64,000 nt of DNA from Bacteroides sp. GTDB taxonomy: Bacteria > Bacteroidota > Bacteroidia > Bacteroidales > Muribaculaceae. The DNA lies in assembly GCA_014802425.1 (NCBI GenBank), contig JAAVCH010000013.1, positions 33,814 through 97,813 of the forward strand. Reading direction: 5' to 3'. Positions within the stretch are counted from its first letter, which is position 1. Every line of letters begins with the position of its first letter. A model generated the notes under the pieces. That model had not been told where the DNA came from and made no database searches. It worked only from the letters and a program-made list of their open reading frames with translations. The translations under genes were made by a program, and so were the position numbers. Below, one piece after another: positions 51,074-59,884 of this stretch.

Positions 51074-52525
51074 CTATTTCGGATTTACGATCTGGTCAAG
51101 GAAGGGGTTGGCGGCAGCCTGGAGGTACAGGGCCTCCGGATCGTCTTTCTGGCGGCGGAGGCACTCCGGGCACCAGTGTCCCCCTTTGAGCACCGTACGC
51201 GGATGCAGTTCGAACTCATGGCCTTCCGAGCAGCGCCAGCGCATCGGCTGGTCGGCTCCTATGCCCACGCCCTCTGCCGGGCCGAGGCATTCCCCGCCCC
51301 TGTAGAGCGCTGCCTGTTCGTAATCGCCGAGGGTCAGCTCTTCGAAAGGGCGTTTTTCGTCATATCCGTGATTCAGGAAGCCCGGGCGGCGGGACAGACG
51401 CCACTCCCTGTCCTGCTCCCACGACGGGATACGCCTGTACTCCTCCATGCTTCCGAAAGCGGCCCGGATACGTCCCTTGTCGGCTGTACGGAGCCAATAA
51501 AGCGTGCCGAGCCCCTTGGTCAGGGCCACTCTCTTCATGACCGCCTTGATGGCCACGGCCGGGGCCAGCGGGGCCAGCCGGAAGTACCATGGCAGTTCCT
51601 TACGGATGCGGGCCATATAGGCCGGAAAGGTCTCACGGCCACGGAAGTGAAGCAGTTCTTCCAGTGCATCGGAGTCCGTGTACCACATCCCGTGGAAATT
51701 ACGAGTGGCGAACCAATTGCGTTCAAACGCCTTGTAAGCCGGCGGACATCCCACGGCCTCAAGCGTCATGTTGAGGAAGTCGTAGTTGGTGACGCGGTAG
51801 GTCTCCCCTCCTCCGATATTGTAGAATCCGCACCAGAATGATCCGGGGATATCGTCGGCAGTGCAGAGATTGGCGAGGAGGCGCCCCGACTGCTCGTCGG
51901 TGACCCACTCGAGACATCCGCGCACAGGCACATGGAACGATATCGGATCCGAAGCCTTCATCAGTATTCCGGGATACATGATTCCCGTCTGGCGCAGCGA
52001 TACCCATTCCTTGAGCCCCGACTCTGCGAGCATCCTTTCGGCCTCGCATTTCGAGAGGGCGTAGGCGTCGTAGGCCGACACACTTATCGGATCCCCGGCG
52101 CGTCCCCAGTGGGCGCGCTCGGGCCGGTTGCCGTACTGAGATACGGAGCCGATGTAGACCACCCGCACGTTCCGTCCCTGACACTGTTCCTGCAGGGCGG
52201 CGGAAATGATGCCGTGCATCGACACGGTGTTGACCTTCAACGTCAGCTTCGGTTTCCAGTCGGCCATAGGGCTTACCATCCCTCCGACATGGAGCACGAT
52301 ATCCGCACCGGCCACGCCGCGACCCACGTCGGCGCCATTCAAAAGGTCGCCCCAGATCACCTCCACCCCTTTCTCCATGAACGGGGCGAGCTTGCGGCGA
52401 TTCGTTTTGGAGTCACGCGCCAGTACGGTAAGGTGTATTTTCTCCGAGGTCCCGGGAGCGGTGAGACGGCGCATCGCCGCCATTCCCATCACTCCCGTGG
52501 CCCCGGTAAGGAATACGCGCTTCAT
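51074..52525 (-). CDS. NAD-dependent epimerase/dehydratase with C-terminal zinc-finger-like extension
   Basis: [33 protein letters not shown]-terminal [25 protein letters not shown]. Confidence 0.82.
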
Positions 52526-53610
52526 TTGGGTTTGGACTCACAGTACACGCAGCGCCATTCACCTTCCTTGTCGGCAGCGGGACGGAAGAGGGTGTCTACG
52601 TTCACTTCCATGTTGGAGATGCAGCGCGGGTTGCGGCAGGTGAACCGGTTGCGCACGGCGTTCTCCGGCACGAGCACGTTCTTCTTATCCTCGCGCCCGG
52701 CCCATTTGAGGAGGGAGAGTATAAGGGCCATACGCACGAACTTGCCGTTCTCCACCTGACGGAAATACGCAGCGCGGGGGTCGGAGTCGACGTCGACAGC
52801 TATCTCGTTGACACGCGGCAGGGGATGGAGCACGCGCATCTCGGGTTTGGCGGCGGCGAGCTTCTTGGCGTCGAGCACGAAGCAGTCCTTCACGCGGTCG
52901 TATTCGTCCTCGTCGAAGAAGCGTTCCTTCTGCACGCGGGTCATATAGAGCACGTCGAGCTCCGGCATCACTTCCTCAAGGGTCGACACCTCCTTATAGG
53001 GGAGGCCGTTGACGTCAAGCACCTCCTTCTTCATATAGCCGGGCAGACGGAGCTGCTCGGGAGCGATGAGCACTACATTGATTCCCTTATAGCGCGAGAG
53101 GGCCTTGATGAGCGAGTGTACGGTGCGGCCGAACTTAAGGTCGCCGCAGAAGCCGATGGTGAGGTCGTCGAAGCGGCCGATCTCGCGGCGGATCGTGAGC
53201 AGGTCGGTCAGCGTCTGCGTGGGATGGGCGTGCGAGCCGTCGCCGGCGTTGATGACGGGTATGCGGCTGTTGAGCGCCGACACGAGTGCGGCACCCTCCT
53301 CAAAATGGCGCATGGCGATGATGTCGGCGAAGCAGTTGATCACCTTGGTGGTGTCGGCGCAGGTCTCTCCCTTGCTGACCGATGTGTTCTGGGCGTCGGA
53401 GAAGCCGAGCACGTTGCCGCCGAGCTCCATCATTGCCGACGTGAAGCTGAGGCGCGTGCGGGTGGAGGGTTCGTAAAAGAGGGTCGCAAGTTTCTTACCC
53501 TTGCAGGCTTCGGAATATTTTTCGCGGTTGGCTATGATGTCGAGGGCCAGGTCGATGATTTCCTCGGTTTCCTCTTTGGTGAGGTCGGTAGGCTCGATGA
53601 GGTGTTTCAT
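52522..53610 (-). CDS. pyrB: Aspartate carbamoyltransferase catalytic chain with C-terminal PyrI-like zinc domain
   Basis: [28 protein letters not shown]-terminus [11 protein letters not shown]...WRCVYC matches PyrI C-x4-C / C-x2-C. Confidence 0.93.
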
Positions 53611-53670: not shown

Positions 53671-54312
53671 TTATTTCTGCATCCAGGATTCATCGGAAGG
53701 ATTGGCCATGAATTTCTTCAGGCGCGCCTCGTCTTCGGGCTTCACATATCCCTTTTCCACGGCCACACCCACGAGAGTGTCGAAGTTGGAGAGGGAATGG
53801 TTCTCGACTCCGGCGGCCGCAAGGCGGTCAAGTCCTTTCTGCATTCCGTAGGTGAAGATGCTGACCACTCCGAGCACATCGGCTCCGGCCTCGCGCAGTG
53901 CCTCCACGACATCGATGCAGCTGCCGGCCGTGGAGATGAGGTCCTCCACCACCACTACCTTCTGACCCTTTTCGAGGCGACCCTCGATACGGTTGTTTCG
54001 GCCGTGGTCCTTGGCGCTGCCGCGCACATAGCCCATGGGCATGCCGAGAAGATGGCCCGCGATGGCGGCGTGGGCTATTCCGGCTGTGGATGTACCCATC
54101 AGCACTTCCGCCTCGGGATAATATTCCTTCACCGTGTCGGCTATGGCCTGCTCCACTATGTCGCGGGCCTCGGGAGAGGTAAGGATAAGACGGTTGTCGC
54201 AGTAGATGGGGCTTTTAATGCCGCTGGCCCATGTGAAGGGTTCATCGGGGCTAAGGAACACTGCCTTGATGCCGAGAAGCTGCTCGGCCACCTTCTTTGC
54301 TGTATCGCTCAT
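53671..54312 (-). CDS. pyrE: Orotate phosphoribosyltransferase
   Basis: FTWASGIKSPIYCDNR, VVVVEDLISTAGS; start set at MSDTAKK. Confidence 0.95.
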   Translation of the reverse strand: MSDTAKKVAEQLLGIKAVFLSPDEPFTWASGIKSPIYCDNRLILTSPEARDIVEQAIADTVKEYYPEAEVLMGTSTAGIAHAAIAGHLLGMPMGYVRGSAKDHGRNNRIEGRLEKGQKVVVVEDLISTAGSCIDVVEALREAGADVLGVVSIFTYGMQKGLDRLAAAGVENHSLSNFDTLVGVAVEKGYVKPEDEARLKKFMANPSDESWMQK

Positions 54313-54408: not shown

Positions 54409-55119
54409 TTATCCCACAAACTCCTTCACGCATCTGCGCCAGGCCTCTACGGGATCCCCGGCGGCAGTGATGGGGCGTCCCACCACGATGAAGTCGCTGC
54501 CTATCTCGCGGGCGCGCTCGGGTGTGGTGATGCGCACCTGGTCGTCGGCGGCGGAGTCGGCGAAGCGTATTCCGGGAGTGACGGTCATGAAGTCGGGGCC
54601 GCAGGCCTCCTTCACAAGTCCGGCCTCAAGGGGCGAACATACCACTCCGTCCAGTCCGGCCTCCTTGGCGTTGCGGGCATAGTGGGCGATGACGTCGTTG
54701 ATGTCACCCTCCACTTTGAGCTGTTCGTTCATCGCCTGCTGGGAGGTAGAGGTGAGCTGTGTCACGGCAATGAGCAGAGGGCGGGTGCCGTCCTCACGGG
54801 TAAGCCCCTCGATGGCGGCGGCCATCATTTCGCGGGTGCCCGAAGCGTGTACGTTGACCATATCCACATCAAGCGCCGAAAGCACTTTCATGGCCTTGCG
54901 CACGGTGTTGGGGATGTCATGAAGTTTGAGGTCGAGGAAGATTCTGTGGCCACGGCGCTTAAGCTCCTTCACGATTTCGTTGCCCGCGGCATAATAGAGC
55001 TCCATGCCGATCTTCACAAAAGGTTTACGTTCCTCGCCGGCGAACCTGTCGAGGAAGGCAAGGGCCTGTTCGGCGCTGCCGAAGTCACATGCTATGATGA
55101 CGTCTCTTTCTTTTTCCAT
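54409..55119 (-). CDS. pyrF: Orotidine 5'-phosphate decarboxylase
   Basis: FLDLKLHDIPNTVRKA, VTPGIRF, VVGRPITAAGDP. Confidence 0.96.
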   Translation of the reverse strand: MEKERDVIIACDFGSAEQALAFLDRFAGEERKPFVKIGMELYYAAGNEIVKELKRRGHRIFLDLKLHDIPNTVRKAMKVLSALDVDMVNVHASGTREMMAAAIEGLTREDGTRPLLIAVTQLTSTSQQAMNEQLKVEGDINDVIAHYARNAKEAGLDGVVCSPLEAGLVKEACGPDFMTVTPGIRFADSAADDQVRITTPERAREIGSDFIVVGRPITAAGDPVEAWRRCVKEFVG

Positions 55120-55190: not shown

Positions 55191-56165
55191 TTACTTGCAG
55201 GCACCGATTATCTCGCTCAGCGAGCTGATGCCGAGGCGCTCCATCTCCGCCGGGAGGGAGGCTATGATGCGGGGACAGGCATAGGGATCGCGGAGGTTGG
55301 CCGCCCCAACCTGCACGGCCGTGGCGCCGGCCATCATCATTTCAATCACGTCGCGTGCCGTCGACACGCCGCCGCATCCCATGACGGGAACTCCGCAGGC
55401 CTTGGCCACCTGATAGACCATGCGCACGGCCACGGGGAAGATGGCGTCGCCCGAGAATCCGCCCATTACGTTGGCTATGACCGGACGCCGGGTCCTGATA
55501 TCGATGCGCATGCCGAGCATGGTGTTGATGAGGCAGATTCCGTCGGCACCTTCTTCAACGGCGGCAGAGGCGATGGAGACTATGTCGGTGACGTTGGGCG
55601 AGAGTTTCACGTACAGCGGCTTGCTGACCACCTTGCGCACCTCGCGGGTCACTTCCTCCACGCTTCCGCATTGCGTGCCGAAGCTCATGCCGCCGCCGTG
55701 TACGTTGGGACAGCTGACGTTGAGCTCGATTATCGCCACACCGTCCTCCTTGTCGATTTTTTCGCAGCACTCCACATATTCGTCGATGGAGAAGCCGCTG
55801 ATGTTGGCTATCACGGGCTGATGGAATGCGGCGCGCATCCTGGGGAGCTCGTCGGAGATCACACGGTCGATGCCCGGATTCTGAAGCCCGACGCTGTTGA
55901 TCATTCCGGCCGGACATTCAGCCACACGCGGCAGGGGGTTTCCGAAACGGGGCTCACGGGTGGTGCCCTTAAAGCTGATGGAGCCGAGGCAGTCGATGTC
56001 GTAATACTCGGCCATTCCGTAGCCGTAGCCGAAGCATCCGGATGCGGGCACAACGGGGTTGCGCAGTTCGACTCCGCTGAGGTTCACGCGGAGTTCCGGA
56101 CGGTCCGCCAGGGCGAGCCGCATGATTTCCTCGATAGGCATCAGGGAGATGGGGTTCATTTCCAT
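55191..56165 (-). CDS. pyrD: Dihydroorotate dehydrogenase B, catalytic subunit
   Basis: VELRNPVVPASGCFGYG, NVSCPNVHGGGMSFGT, GGVSTARDVIEMMMAGATAVQVG. Confidence 0.95.
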   Translation of the reverse strand: MEMNPISLMPIEEIMRLALADRPELRVNLSGVELRNPVVPASGCFGYGYGMAEYYDIDCLGSISFKGTTREPRFGNPLPRVAECPAGMINSVGLQNPGIDRVISDELPRMRAAFHQPVIANISGFSIDEYVECCEKIDKEDGVAIIELNVSCPNVHGGGMSFGTQCGSVEEVTREVRKVVSKPLYVKLSPNVTDIVSIASAAVEEGADGICLINTMLGMRIDIRTRRPVIANVMGGFSGDAIFPVAVRMVYQVAKACGVPVMGCGGVSTARDVIEMMMAGATAVQVGAANLRDPYACPRIIASLPAEMERLGISSLSEIIGACK

Positions 56166-56902
56166 ATCAGGTCCTCCTTTCTGAACACGGGTCCGTCCTT
56201 ACATATGCGGCGTGCGCCGTCACGGGTCTCAAGACTGCAGCACATGCACACTCCGAAGCCGCATGCCATCCGCGCCTCCAGGCTGAGCTCGCCGTCGACG
56301 GGGAGGGCGGCGCAGAGGGCGCGCAGCATCGGGAGCGGACCGCAGGCGTAGAAGTAGGTATGGGCCGCATCGTGTATGGCCTCCACGTCGGTCACGAATC
56401 CTTTCGTGCCCTCGCTGCCGTCGACCGTAGCCACGTGGGTATCTACTCCGAGAGCGCGGAATTCATCGGCCCACACCACATCGGCCGCAGTGTTGAAGCC
56501 GAGTATCACGCAAGGCTTCTTTCCTCCGGCCTTAAGTTCGCGGGCGAGCCTGTAGAGCGGGGCCACGCCGATGCCTCCTCCGAGCAGGAGCGGTGAGTCA
56601 CCCCCGCGCAGGGGGTCGAAGCCCGTACCGAGGGGAGCGAGGATGTCGGCCACATAGCCGGGCGCCCAGCGCGACATTTCGGAAGTGCCCTCTCCGACGG
56701 TATCGTAAAGGAGCGTCACGGTGTCCCCTTCATAGTCGCACACCGATATGGGGCGGCGGAGATACTTTCCTTCGATAGCGAGGTTGACGAACTGGCCCGG
56801 CTGTTCGATCACCCACTCCGGGCCGCGAAGGCGCATGAGGAACGTGCGTGAAGTAAGCCGGCGGTTTTCCACCACTTCGAATCTATGTTCTATATTTTTC
56901 AT
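56156..56902 (-). CDS. pyrK: Dihydroorotate dehydrogenase electron-transfer subunit
   Basis: PGQFVNLAI, RRPISVCDYEGDTVTLLYDTVGEGT, ACGFGVCMCC Fe-S motif. Confidence 0.93.
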   Translation of the reverse strand: MKNIEHRFEVVENRRLTSRTFLMRLRGPEWVIEQPGQFVNLAIEGKYLRRPISVCDYEGDTVTLLYDTVGEGTSEMSRWAPGYVADILAPLGTGFDPLRGGDSPLLLGGGIGVAPLYRLARELKAGGKKPCVILGFNTAADVVWADEFRALGVDTHVATVDGSEGTKGFVTDVEAIHDAAHTYFYACGPLPMLRALCAALPVDGELSLEARMACGFGVCMCCSLETRDGARRICKDGPVFRKEDLIWK

Positions 56903-56975: not shown

Positions 56976-58247
56976 TCAACGGTCAAGCCAGTCGGTGACC
57001 GTGCCGACCGCCCAGCCTTGGAGCACCTTACCCTCGAAGGGAGTGGAGCGGCCGGTGCCCTTGAATACGTCGGCGTTTACGGTGCGGGTCGCGTTCAGGT
57101 CAACAAGCGTGAGCATTGCGGGGTCACCTTCGGCGATGCCGCCGCTTTCGAATCCTTCGAGTCCGAGGATGCGGCGCGGCTTGAGCGACATGAGCTCCAC
57201 GAGCCGGTCAAGCGTGATGCGCCCCGACAGCACGAGCTGCGTGTATGATGCCGGGAAGGATATCTCAAGGCCCACGACGCCCATGGCGCTGTGCTCGAGG
57301 TCCTTGTCTTTCTCCCGGTCGGCATGGGGGGCATGGTCGGTGGCTATGGCGTCGATCGTGCCGTCCTTGATGCCGTGGATAAGGGCGCGCCAGTCAGGCT
57401 CGCTGCGCAGCGGCGGGTTCATTTTCCAGCGTCCCTCGTTGGAGAGGTCCTCGTCGGTAAACCAAAGGTAGTGCGGGGCTGTCTCGCAGGTCACGGGCAG
57501 ACCCTCGCGCTTGGCATTGCGTACGAGGTCCACGCTTTCGGCCGTGGATATATGGCATATGTGGAGACGCACGCCGGTCTCCCGGGCGAGGTTGATGTCG
57601 CGCTCCACTTCACGCCACTCGCTTTCGGAACATATGCCGCGATGGTTGTTGAAATGTGCGTAGTCGCCGTCGTGGATGTAGCCTCCGCGAAGCAGTTCGT
57701 TGACTTCGCAATGGGCCGCGAGGATTTTGCCGGTGCCCGCGATGCGGCGCATGGCCGCGCGCATCACGTCTTCCGACTGCACTCCTGAGCCGTCATCGGA
57801 GAACCCGGCCACGTAGGGGGCCATCTCCTTGTAGTCGGCAAGCGTGTCCTCGCCCAGACGCTGGCGCGTGATGGTGGCGTAAGGGAGGATCTGCACGTCG
57901 TTCTGCCGCGCGATGGCGTCGAGCTGAACGCGCAGATGCGCCATCGTATCAGGCGCCGGCTTCAGGTTGGGCATGGTGCAGACCGTGGTGAACCCTCCGG
58001 CCTTCGCGGCCCTTGCGCCCCCCTCGATGGTCTCCTTGTATTCGAATCCGGGTTCGCGGAAATGCACGTGGAGGTCGGTAAGACCCGGCAGCACAGTCAG
58101 TCCGCGGCCGTAGATGATGTCCATATCCTCGTCGGCCTCTATATGGGGGGCTATCCGCGCCACGTGCCCGTAGCTCACAAGGAGATCTCCCCTCACGAGT
58201 CCGGAGGCGGTAAATATATCAGCGTCCTTTACGAGTCTTCTATTCAT
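56976..58247 (-). CDS. pyrC: Dihydroorotase
   Basis: LPGLTDLHVHFREPG, HICHISTAESVDLV, ATDHAPH. Confidence 0.96.
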   Translation of the reverse strand: MNRRLVKDADIFTASGLVRGDLLVSYGHVARIAPHIEADEDMDIIYGRGLTVLPGLTDLHVHFREPGFEYKETIEGGARAAKAGGFTTVCTMPNLKPAPDTMAHLRVQLDAIARQNDVQILPYATITRQRLGEDTLADYKEMAPYVAGFSDDGSGVQSEDVMRAAMRRIAGTGKILAAHCEVNELLRGGYIHDGDYAHFNNHRGICSESEWREVERDINLARETGVRLHICHISTAESVDLVRNAKREGLPVTCETAPHYLWFTDEDLSNEGRWKMNPPLRSEPDWRALIHGIKDGTIDAIATDHAPHADREKDKDLEHSAMGVVGLEISFPASYTQLVLSGRITLDRLVELMSLKPRRILGLEGFESGGIAEGDPAMLTLVDLNATRTVNADVFKGTGRSTPFEGKVLQGWAVGTVTDWLDR

Positions 58248-58301
58248 GTCTCTGTCGTGTGGTATGCCGGCTTATGGCCAACGGTTTGTAATGCTCCGCA
58301 T

Positions 58302-58343
58302 AAAGAAAAATGAGGCCTTTCCGCCAAAGCGGTAAGAGCCTCA
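58302..58343 (-). terminator. Intrinsic terminator/attenuator in pyrC leader
   Basis: Minus strand TGAGGCTCTTACCGC-TTTG-GCGGAAAGGCCTCA followed by TTTTTCTTT. Confidence 0.82.
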
Positions 58344-58400
58344 TCAGTCGATATTTCGTTTACGGTGTCTCAAATTGTGTAATCAAGTCAGTCGTTTCCG

Positions 58401-58436
58401 GGCGGATAAGGAGTAGCGGAACCGATGTCCGCCTAC
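58401..58436 (-). promoter_or_regulatory. Candidate antiterminator and anti-antiterminator segments of the pyrC leader
   Basis: CCTTATCCGCC (58401-58411) complementary to terminator arm GGCGGAAAGG with one bulge; GTAGGCGGA/TCCGCTAC hairpin at 58413-58436. Confidence 0.5.
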
Positions 58437-58447
58437 CCCATTTCATA

Positions 58448-58479
58448 CAAAATTACGAAACATTTCCCGTACCTCCAAA
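58448..58479 (-). promoter_or_regulatory. Bacteroidetes -33/-7 promoter for pyr operon
   Basis: Minus strand TTGG/TTTG-19/20 nt-TAATTTTG. Confidence 0.7.
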
Positions 58480-58558
58480 ATTTATGCACACATTTTACCA
58501 TTCTGTGCAGCCATGCCGTCCCGGCCTCACTTCCGGCGTCGGGGGGGGAGCGGGATAA

Positions 58559-59743
58559 TCAGCGGTGCCCCAGGAGACGCCCCATAAGGGCGAGGTACAG
58601 CCCGGAGAAGCGCCGCGACACATACCAGCTACCGGTGCGGTAGACCAACGCCGAAATCACTGCCGTCACGAAATACACCCCGCACAGCGACAGCGTGGGC
58701 TCGGCGTAAGGGGAATGAAGGTCAAACAGGTATCTGCCGAACAAATGCCTCACCACAGGATGGACTATATATATGTAGGCGCTCAGTCCGCCGAAGGCCG
58801 CCATGGCCGACGACAGCAGCGGCAGCCTCTCGATCAGCAATGCCGCGGCCAGCACGACCACGACGGCGGCCAGCGAAGTGCCCTGCCATCCCAACGGGGT
58901 ATCCATAAGATAAATGAAGTAAAGCACCGCCCCGGCAAAGGCCGCGCATATGCCGTAAAGCGGAAAGTCCTTACGCCGGGCCGCCGACACTCCCGCCACA
59001 AACGGAAGCATCCAACCCGTAAAGTTATGCCGCAGGTATTCCACCCATTCATATCCCGCACGCAGGTAGCCGGGAGTGACGAGGATATATATCACCGCAT
59101 AGCAGGCCAGCGCGACACTCCACATCACCCATGCGGGCCTGCGGTGGACGGCAAGGGCATAGACCACATACAACTCAAAAGCCAGACCGAGATACCAGTA
59201 CACTCCCGGCACTACCGGAAGCCACTTCTCGAACAGCCCGTTAAGTTCCGTAAGGGGAATGAGCATGCGCATCATCATCTCCGCGTTGACGCTGCCGTCG
59301 GCCGCGGCTATGTCAAGCAGATATTCCCCGCAGAGTATCACCACGGCCGGAAGCATCAGGAAGAAGAGTTTCCGCCAGTTCTTGAAAAGGAACCGGCCGG
59401 CGTCAAACGCCGGGCCCTCCCCATACCGCCTTGCAAGTCCGAACCCGGAAAGGAATATAAACACCGGCACGCCGTACCAGCCGATGAACGACAGTAAATC
59501 GTAGACCAGAAGATGGTTGTCCCACCGCATCCGGGCAAAGAAACCGGCGTTGAGGCCGGGATTGAAGTTGAACTCGCATTCGCTGACCACTTTCGGGAAC
59601 ACATGCACGAGATTGTGCATCATTATCAGCAGAATCGACAGGCCGCGGGCTATCACGGTAGTGCGCCGCGACAGGTCGACTCTTGCCGCGCCGGCCCGGC
59701 GCAGCCCTGACAATACCCTACCGATGGCTGCTGAGGTGTTCAT
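58559..59743 (-). CDS. Acyltransferase family membrane protein
   Basis: ARGLSILLIMMHNLVHVFP, FIGWYGVPVFIFLSGFGLARRY; start set at MNTSAAIG. Confidence 0.82.
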   Translation of the reverse strand: MNTSAAIGRVLSGLRRAGAARVDLSRRTTVIARGLSILLIMMHNLVHVFPKVVSECEFNFNPGLNAGFFARMRWDNHLLVYDLLSFIGWYGVPVFIFLSGFGLARRYGEGPAFDAGRFLFKNWRKLFFLMLPAVVILCGEYLLDIAAADGSVNAEMMMRMLIPLTELNGLFEKWLPVVPGVYWYLGLAFELYVVYALAVHRRPAWVMWSVALACYAVIYILVTPGYLRAGYEWVEYLRHNFTGWMLPFVAGVSAARRKDFPLYGICAAFAGAVLYFIYLMDTPLGWQGTSLAAVVVVLAAALLIERLPLLSSAMAAFGGLSAYIYIVHPVVRHLFGRYLFDLHSPYAEPTLSLCGVYFVTAVISALVYRTGSWYVSRRFSGLYLALMGRLLGHR

Positions 59744-59884
59744 GACTTTAAGGTTACGTTCCTCCCGGACTGACGCGGAATCCCGGAAATTGCATATTCT
59801 ATGCAAATTTAGTAAATTCGCCTGATATTTCCCCTCTTCTCCCGACCTATCTTAACCGTAAGCCGTAATAATCATAATAATAAG

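Follow-up and report, generated by a model that had tools for sequence, protein, structure and literature searches.

The described pyrimidine-gene leaders closest to the locus analysed here include the Bacillus-type pyrG leader, which uses reiterative G addition, and the leaders subject to Bacillus-type PyrR attenuation (RF00515). The attenuator of the E. coli pyrBI operon works together with pyrL, a leader peptide (Roland, Liu and Turnbough 1988, as described in PMC5021804); when a ribosome closely follows the polymerase, terminator formation is prevented (PMC5021804). Leader-type control is also reported from the phylum Bacteroidetes: in the parts of the two reports considered here, leader-peptide attenuators are inferred at amino-acid operons of F. 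psychrophilum (PMC9723704) and sORFs are described in long 5' UTRs of B. thetaiotaomicron (PMC7366714), and pyrimidine genes are not named there. A search of open papers, with subscription literature mostly outside its coverage, turned up no description of pyrimidine-gene attenuation in Bacteroidetes.

We analysed a 64,000-nucleotide stretch of DNA from a member of the Muribaculaceae (the window), which contains a pyr operon preceded by a leader that a first-pass annotation had proposed to be a transcription attenuator. The first gene 3' of this leader is pyrC, followed by pyrK, pyrD, pyrF, pyrE and pyrB, all on the minus strand:

58559-59806, same strand as pyrC: acyltransferase gene, the upstream neighbour
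56976-58247, minus strand: pyrC, dihydroorotase (TIGR00857)
56156-56902, minus strand: pyrK, dihydroorotate dehydrogenase electron-transfer subunit (best match, under the curated cut-off)
55191-56165, minus strand: pyrD, class 1B-type dihydroorotate dehydrogenase
54409-55119, minus strand: pyrF, OMP decarboxylase
53671-54312, minus strand: pyrE, orotate phosphoribosyltransferase (start codon chosen by eye)
52522-53610, minus strand: pyrB, aspartate carbamoyltransferase with a C-terminal PyrI_C zinc domain

The zinc domain of PyrB occupies residues 319-360 and comes without the remainder of the regulatory chain, an unusual fusion of a catalytic and a zinc domain.

The window leader is probably a diverged pyr attenuator; we recognise its terminator by comparison with relatives and infer its regulation. 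On balance we lean towards a reading in which the stretch is the 5' leader of pyrCKDFEB with a genuine terminator, in a diverged, formerly pyrL-like form whose readthrough would depend on RNA folding and polymerase speed. The promoter, terminator and helix elements named by the first-pass annotation are all present where it had placed them. Together with the predicted start, they are:

58448-58480, minus strand: promoter, TTTTGG (-33 region, 58480-58475) and TAATTTTG (-7 box, 58455-58448)
58443, minus strand: predicted transcription start, AAAUGGGG..., from the box spacing given for F. psychrophilum in PMC9723704
58410-58439, minus strand: 5'-terminal hairpin P1, GGGGUAGGCGGA / UCCGCUACUCC, -14.4 kcal/mol
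58401-58411, minus strand: proposed antiterminator strand CCUUAUCCGCC, complementary to 58325-58316
58302-58343, minus strand: intrinsic terminator, UGAGGCUCUUACCGC-UUUG-GCGGAAAGGCCUCA with UUUUUCUUU, -21.5 kcal/mol, homologous in leaders L006 and L008-L012

The pyrC promoter fits the Bacteroidetes TTG/TAnnTTTG consensus, with TTGG at 58478-58475 separated by 19 nt from TAATTTTG. The TAnnTTTG sigma-A box sits at -12 to -5 in Flavobacterium psychrophilum, according to PMC9723704, and transcription would accordingly start near A58443, leaving a leader of 100 nt ahead of the terminator. An ORF at 58446 (MKWGRRTSVPLLLIRPETTDLITQFETP), which ends 16 nt before the terminator, was considered as a leader peptide and rejected, its AUG falling at -3 if the box-to-start distance holds. 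When the whole leader was used in a DNA similarity search of 297 family genomes, the promoter alone matched, and a 38-nt stretch over it is 83-95% identical to rsmI and tRNA-Leu gene promoters of other Muribaculaceae genera. Because such similar stretches precede these genes, the promoter is, as judged by comparison, of a general strong type that carries no information on pyrimidines.

The terminator lies between the operon's own promoter and its first gene. Its arms (58343-58329 and 58325-58311) are followed by TTTTTCTTT (58310-58302), and the pyrC ATG (58247) lies 54 nt past this U-tract. Hairpin 58343-58311 with TTTTTCTTT folds at -21.5 kcal/mol, and the leader as a whole is more stable than its shuffles (z = -3.4; 0 of 200 equally stable). 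The interrupted stem kept the pyrC leader hairpin off the list of a simple terminator scan. A 34-codon frame (58240-58344, minus strand) begins with an AUG at the foot of the terminator, passes through the hairpin and shares 8 nt with the start of pyrC.

We compared the leader with those of ten PyrC relatives from the same genus, whose proteins are 71-80% identical to the window PyrC. A terminator occurs at the same place in six of the ten (L006 and L008-L012), and no leader terminator was found in the other four (L003, L004, L005 and L007). The outer stem is homologous in the relatives: pair 1 (U-A/A-U) is altered on both sides, and pair 5, G-C in the window, is A-U in L009, again with both sides altered. 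In the PyrC tree, the window forms a separate branch beside the groups L009/L012, L006/L008/L010/L011 and L003/L004/L005/L007; the terminator occurs in two other branches and in outgroups and is missing from the last of these groups. The simplest reading would be an ancestral leader terminator with one loss. At least three PyrC groups occur in the genus, with 71-80%, 54-67% and about 30% identity to the window PyrC; outside the order, the good matches are from MAGs labelled as Clostridia, a result that may be due to mislabelling or gene transfer.

These comparisons bear on whether the hairpin might merely end the transcript of the acyltransferase gene, as the first-pass annotation had allowed. 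That gene shares the strand of pyrC, and between its stop codon and the pyrC promoter the simple scan lists no terminator, but a strong promoter separates it from the hairpin. Moreover, the genes upstream of pyrC differ among the terminator-bearing relatives (a SpoU-type methyltransferase, an NlpE-like lipoprotein and another protein, named by eye), and many more distant relatives also have a terminator, even where the upstream gene is divergent, as in L026 and at the two divergent pyrC genes of genome G091. Because the terminator is kept behind differing upstream genes, with compensatory changes in its stem, sequence comparison indicates that it is a leader terminator and not the end of the acyltransferase transcript, a role we regard as highly improbable. 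The terminator is kept at the pyrC leader site and therefore supports premature termination as a control point.

In the more distant relatives, the leaders point to how such control may have worked. A leader ORF that opens with an ATG 3' of the start site is open up to the terminator in all 17 of the more distant terminator-bearing leaders tested, with 17-38 codons (32-38 in 15 of them); shuffled leaders give any such open frame with a chance of 0.15-0.52 per leader. The leaders share descent, such that these counts are not independent, and because of this relatedness we give no joint probability. Among the nearest relatives, the frame is likewise open up to the terminator in L006, L008, L010 and L011. 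Most related leaders also carry a U-rich tract in the 30 nt ahead of the terminator, with T runs mostly of 4-7, often preceded by a small hairpin (AACGGAAAATCCTTCCGT in L133). The leader peptides show little codon-level constraint, with only a slight third-position excess, so what is conserved is the open frame and the geometry. Freely varying peptides are the expectation if translation, rather than its product, matters, and the open frames suggest that these leaders may be translated.

A covariance model (R1), built from 14 such distant leaders and run over the family and the genus, matched at E<1e-5 only pyrC leaders (11 loci: G008, G062, G076, G091 twice, G101, G040, G016, G022, G033 and G025), carA leaders (two loci: L145 in genome G109 and L162 in genome G027) and one contig end (L142). 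The training set took in most of these pyrC loci and left out the carA loci, G101 and the second G091 leader. Those of the weaker matches (E above 1e-4) that we inspected proved to be a tRNA or unrelated terminators. Genome G091 (L120/L144/L153) has two adjacent divergent pyrC genes, each with an attenuator-like leader, and a tRNA-like sequence near the first leader. In ten other cases (L016, L023, L121-L123, L125, L128, L129, L132 and L139), pyrC comes right after a gene that resembles carB when its protein end is read by eye, without a leader terminator of its own. The carA gene of the window's genome has a promoter near the gene start and no leader terminator.

The relatives resemble E. coli pyrBI/pyrL in layout, with a promoter, a short ORF running to the terminator, a U-rich tract, an intrinsic terminator and a pyrimidine gene; they differ in that the gene is pyrC or carA and not pyrBI. 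The ancestral leader of the lineage may thus have worked like that of E. coli. A short ORF would start just past the transcription start. At low UTP, RNA polymerase would slow at the U-rich tract, allowing the ribosome to catch up and keep the terminator from forming, and with plentiful UTP the polymerase would outrun the ribosome and terminate. We regard the putative leader-ORF attenuator of the relatives as the stronger general finding; no description of it turned up in the open papers searched.

The window copy lacks the two features on which such coupling would depend. The first AUG meets a stop after one further codon (AUG-GGG-UAG), and no reading frame extends into the terminator. A U-tract is likewise missing: over the 30 nt ahead of the terminator, T runs do not exceed 2. 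R1 does not match it (best leader-strand score 2 bits), and likewise does not match clade members L006-L012. Because it has no leader ORF, the window copy, as far as its sequence allows a judgement, can no longer use translation-coupled pyrBI-type attenuation in its usual form. The other described pyrimidine leaders fit no better. A pyr operon leader terminator and possible competing helices are shared with PyrR attenuation, but no Rfam family matches the leader at the gathering threshold or to E=10, and the best hit in a search of the genome for a PyrR gene scores 21.5 bits against a cut-off of 138, in agreement with the earlier failure to recognise PyrR-binding sequences. The window leader has a G-run near its start and a leader terminator in common with pyrG leaders, but its start is predicted at an A and not at the G-run, it has no Rfam match and its gene is pyrC.

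The terminator could be a relic, a constant partial brake whose regulation is gone and which is heading to the terminator-less state of L003, L004, L005 and L007. The missing ORF and U-tract, together with a neighbouring group that is already without a terminator, fit such decay. However, the stem is intact and long with a good U-run after it, features that unconstrained drift would tend to erode, and we consider the relic reading rather doubtful.

What the window leader does have is a 5'-terminal hairpin, P1, formed by GGGGTAGGCGGA (58439-58428) and TCCGCTACTCC (58420-58410). It is more stable than expected from shuffles (p = 0.008), and 2% of real 33-nt stretches are as stable. P1 is common to the terminator-less leaders L003-L005, in which, compared with the window, both partners of three stem pairs differ; the third of these pairs fails in L004. 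One reading gives this hairpin a central place: the family would sense UTP through a leader-ORF attenuator of its own at pyrC and carA, independent of enterobacterial pyrL, and the window lineage would have turned this attenuator into a ribosome-independent one built on P1. We judge this to be unlikely.

The first-pass annotation had instead proposed competing helices, and a competing-helix switch in the window leader is possible. It would take the form of an RNA switch in which P1, the antiterminator (58411-58401 with 58325-58316) and the terminator swap partners under some ligand or protein. The pairings exist: CCTTATCCGCC lies at 58411-58401, a truncated transcript folds with the antiterminator, and a three-way form, in which AAUGGGG also pairs with CCUCAUU, is possible. 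P1 is stronger than chance and common to L003-L005. The pairing of 58411-58401 with the terminator 3' arm beats 98% of shuffled leaders (p = 0.02), but an equally good pairing with that arm is reached by 16% of real 99-nt stretches taken from the window. A constrained fold with the 5' arm blocked gave p = 0.015 against shuffles, with 9% of real stretches matching; the construct had one extra G in the terminator loop, a region held unpaired, which left the tested pairing unaffected. Comparable antiterminator pairing was found in just two of 23 related leaders, L021 (p=0.03) and L126 (p=0.002), and the remaining 21 are without it. Relative to the terminated fold, the antiterminated one is less favourable by 8.5 kcal/mol, a gap that a kinetic switch could still use. 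For the proposed third element, the 5' hairpin is favoured by about 4 kcal/mol over the alternative pairing (GGCGGA with TCCGCC). Thus, of the attenuator leader originally proposed, the terminator is upheld by comparison, whereas the proposed antiterminator helix is marginal against chance and inconsistent among relatives. We consider a switch of this kind decidedly unlikely.

Returning to the diverged, formerly pyrL-like leader that we favour, the window copy would be a derived form in which the terminator is kept, the ORF and U-tract are lost and a 5'-terminal hairpin is present. A fraction of transcripts would stop before pyrC, and readthrough would set how much enzyme is supplied for five of the six steps leading to UMP. 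Because the ORF and U-tract are lost, this readthrough is probably set by RNA folding, with the 5' hairpin and a weak antiterminator opposing the terminator, and by polymerase speed. Its link to pyrimidine supply is probably weaker than in the relatives, or different.

If confirmed, the pyrC and carA leaders would reveal how pyrimidine supply is sensed by members of a dominant gut family. They would also be a case of the pyrBI strategy in a phylum where Shine-Dalgarno sequences are little used. Because the leader is present, changed or lost among close relatives, the decay of such a switch could be followed.
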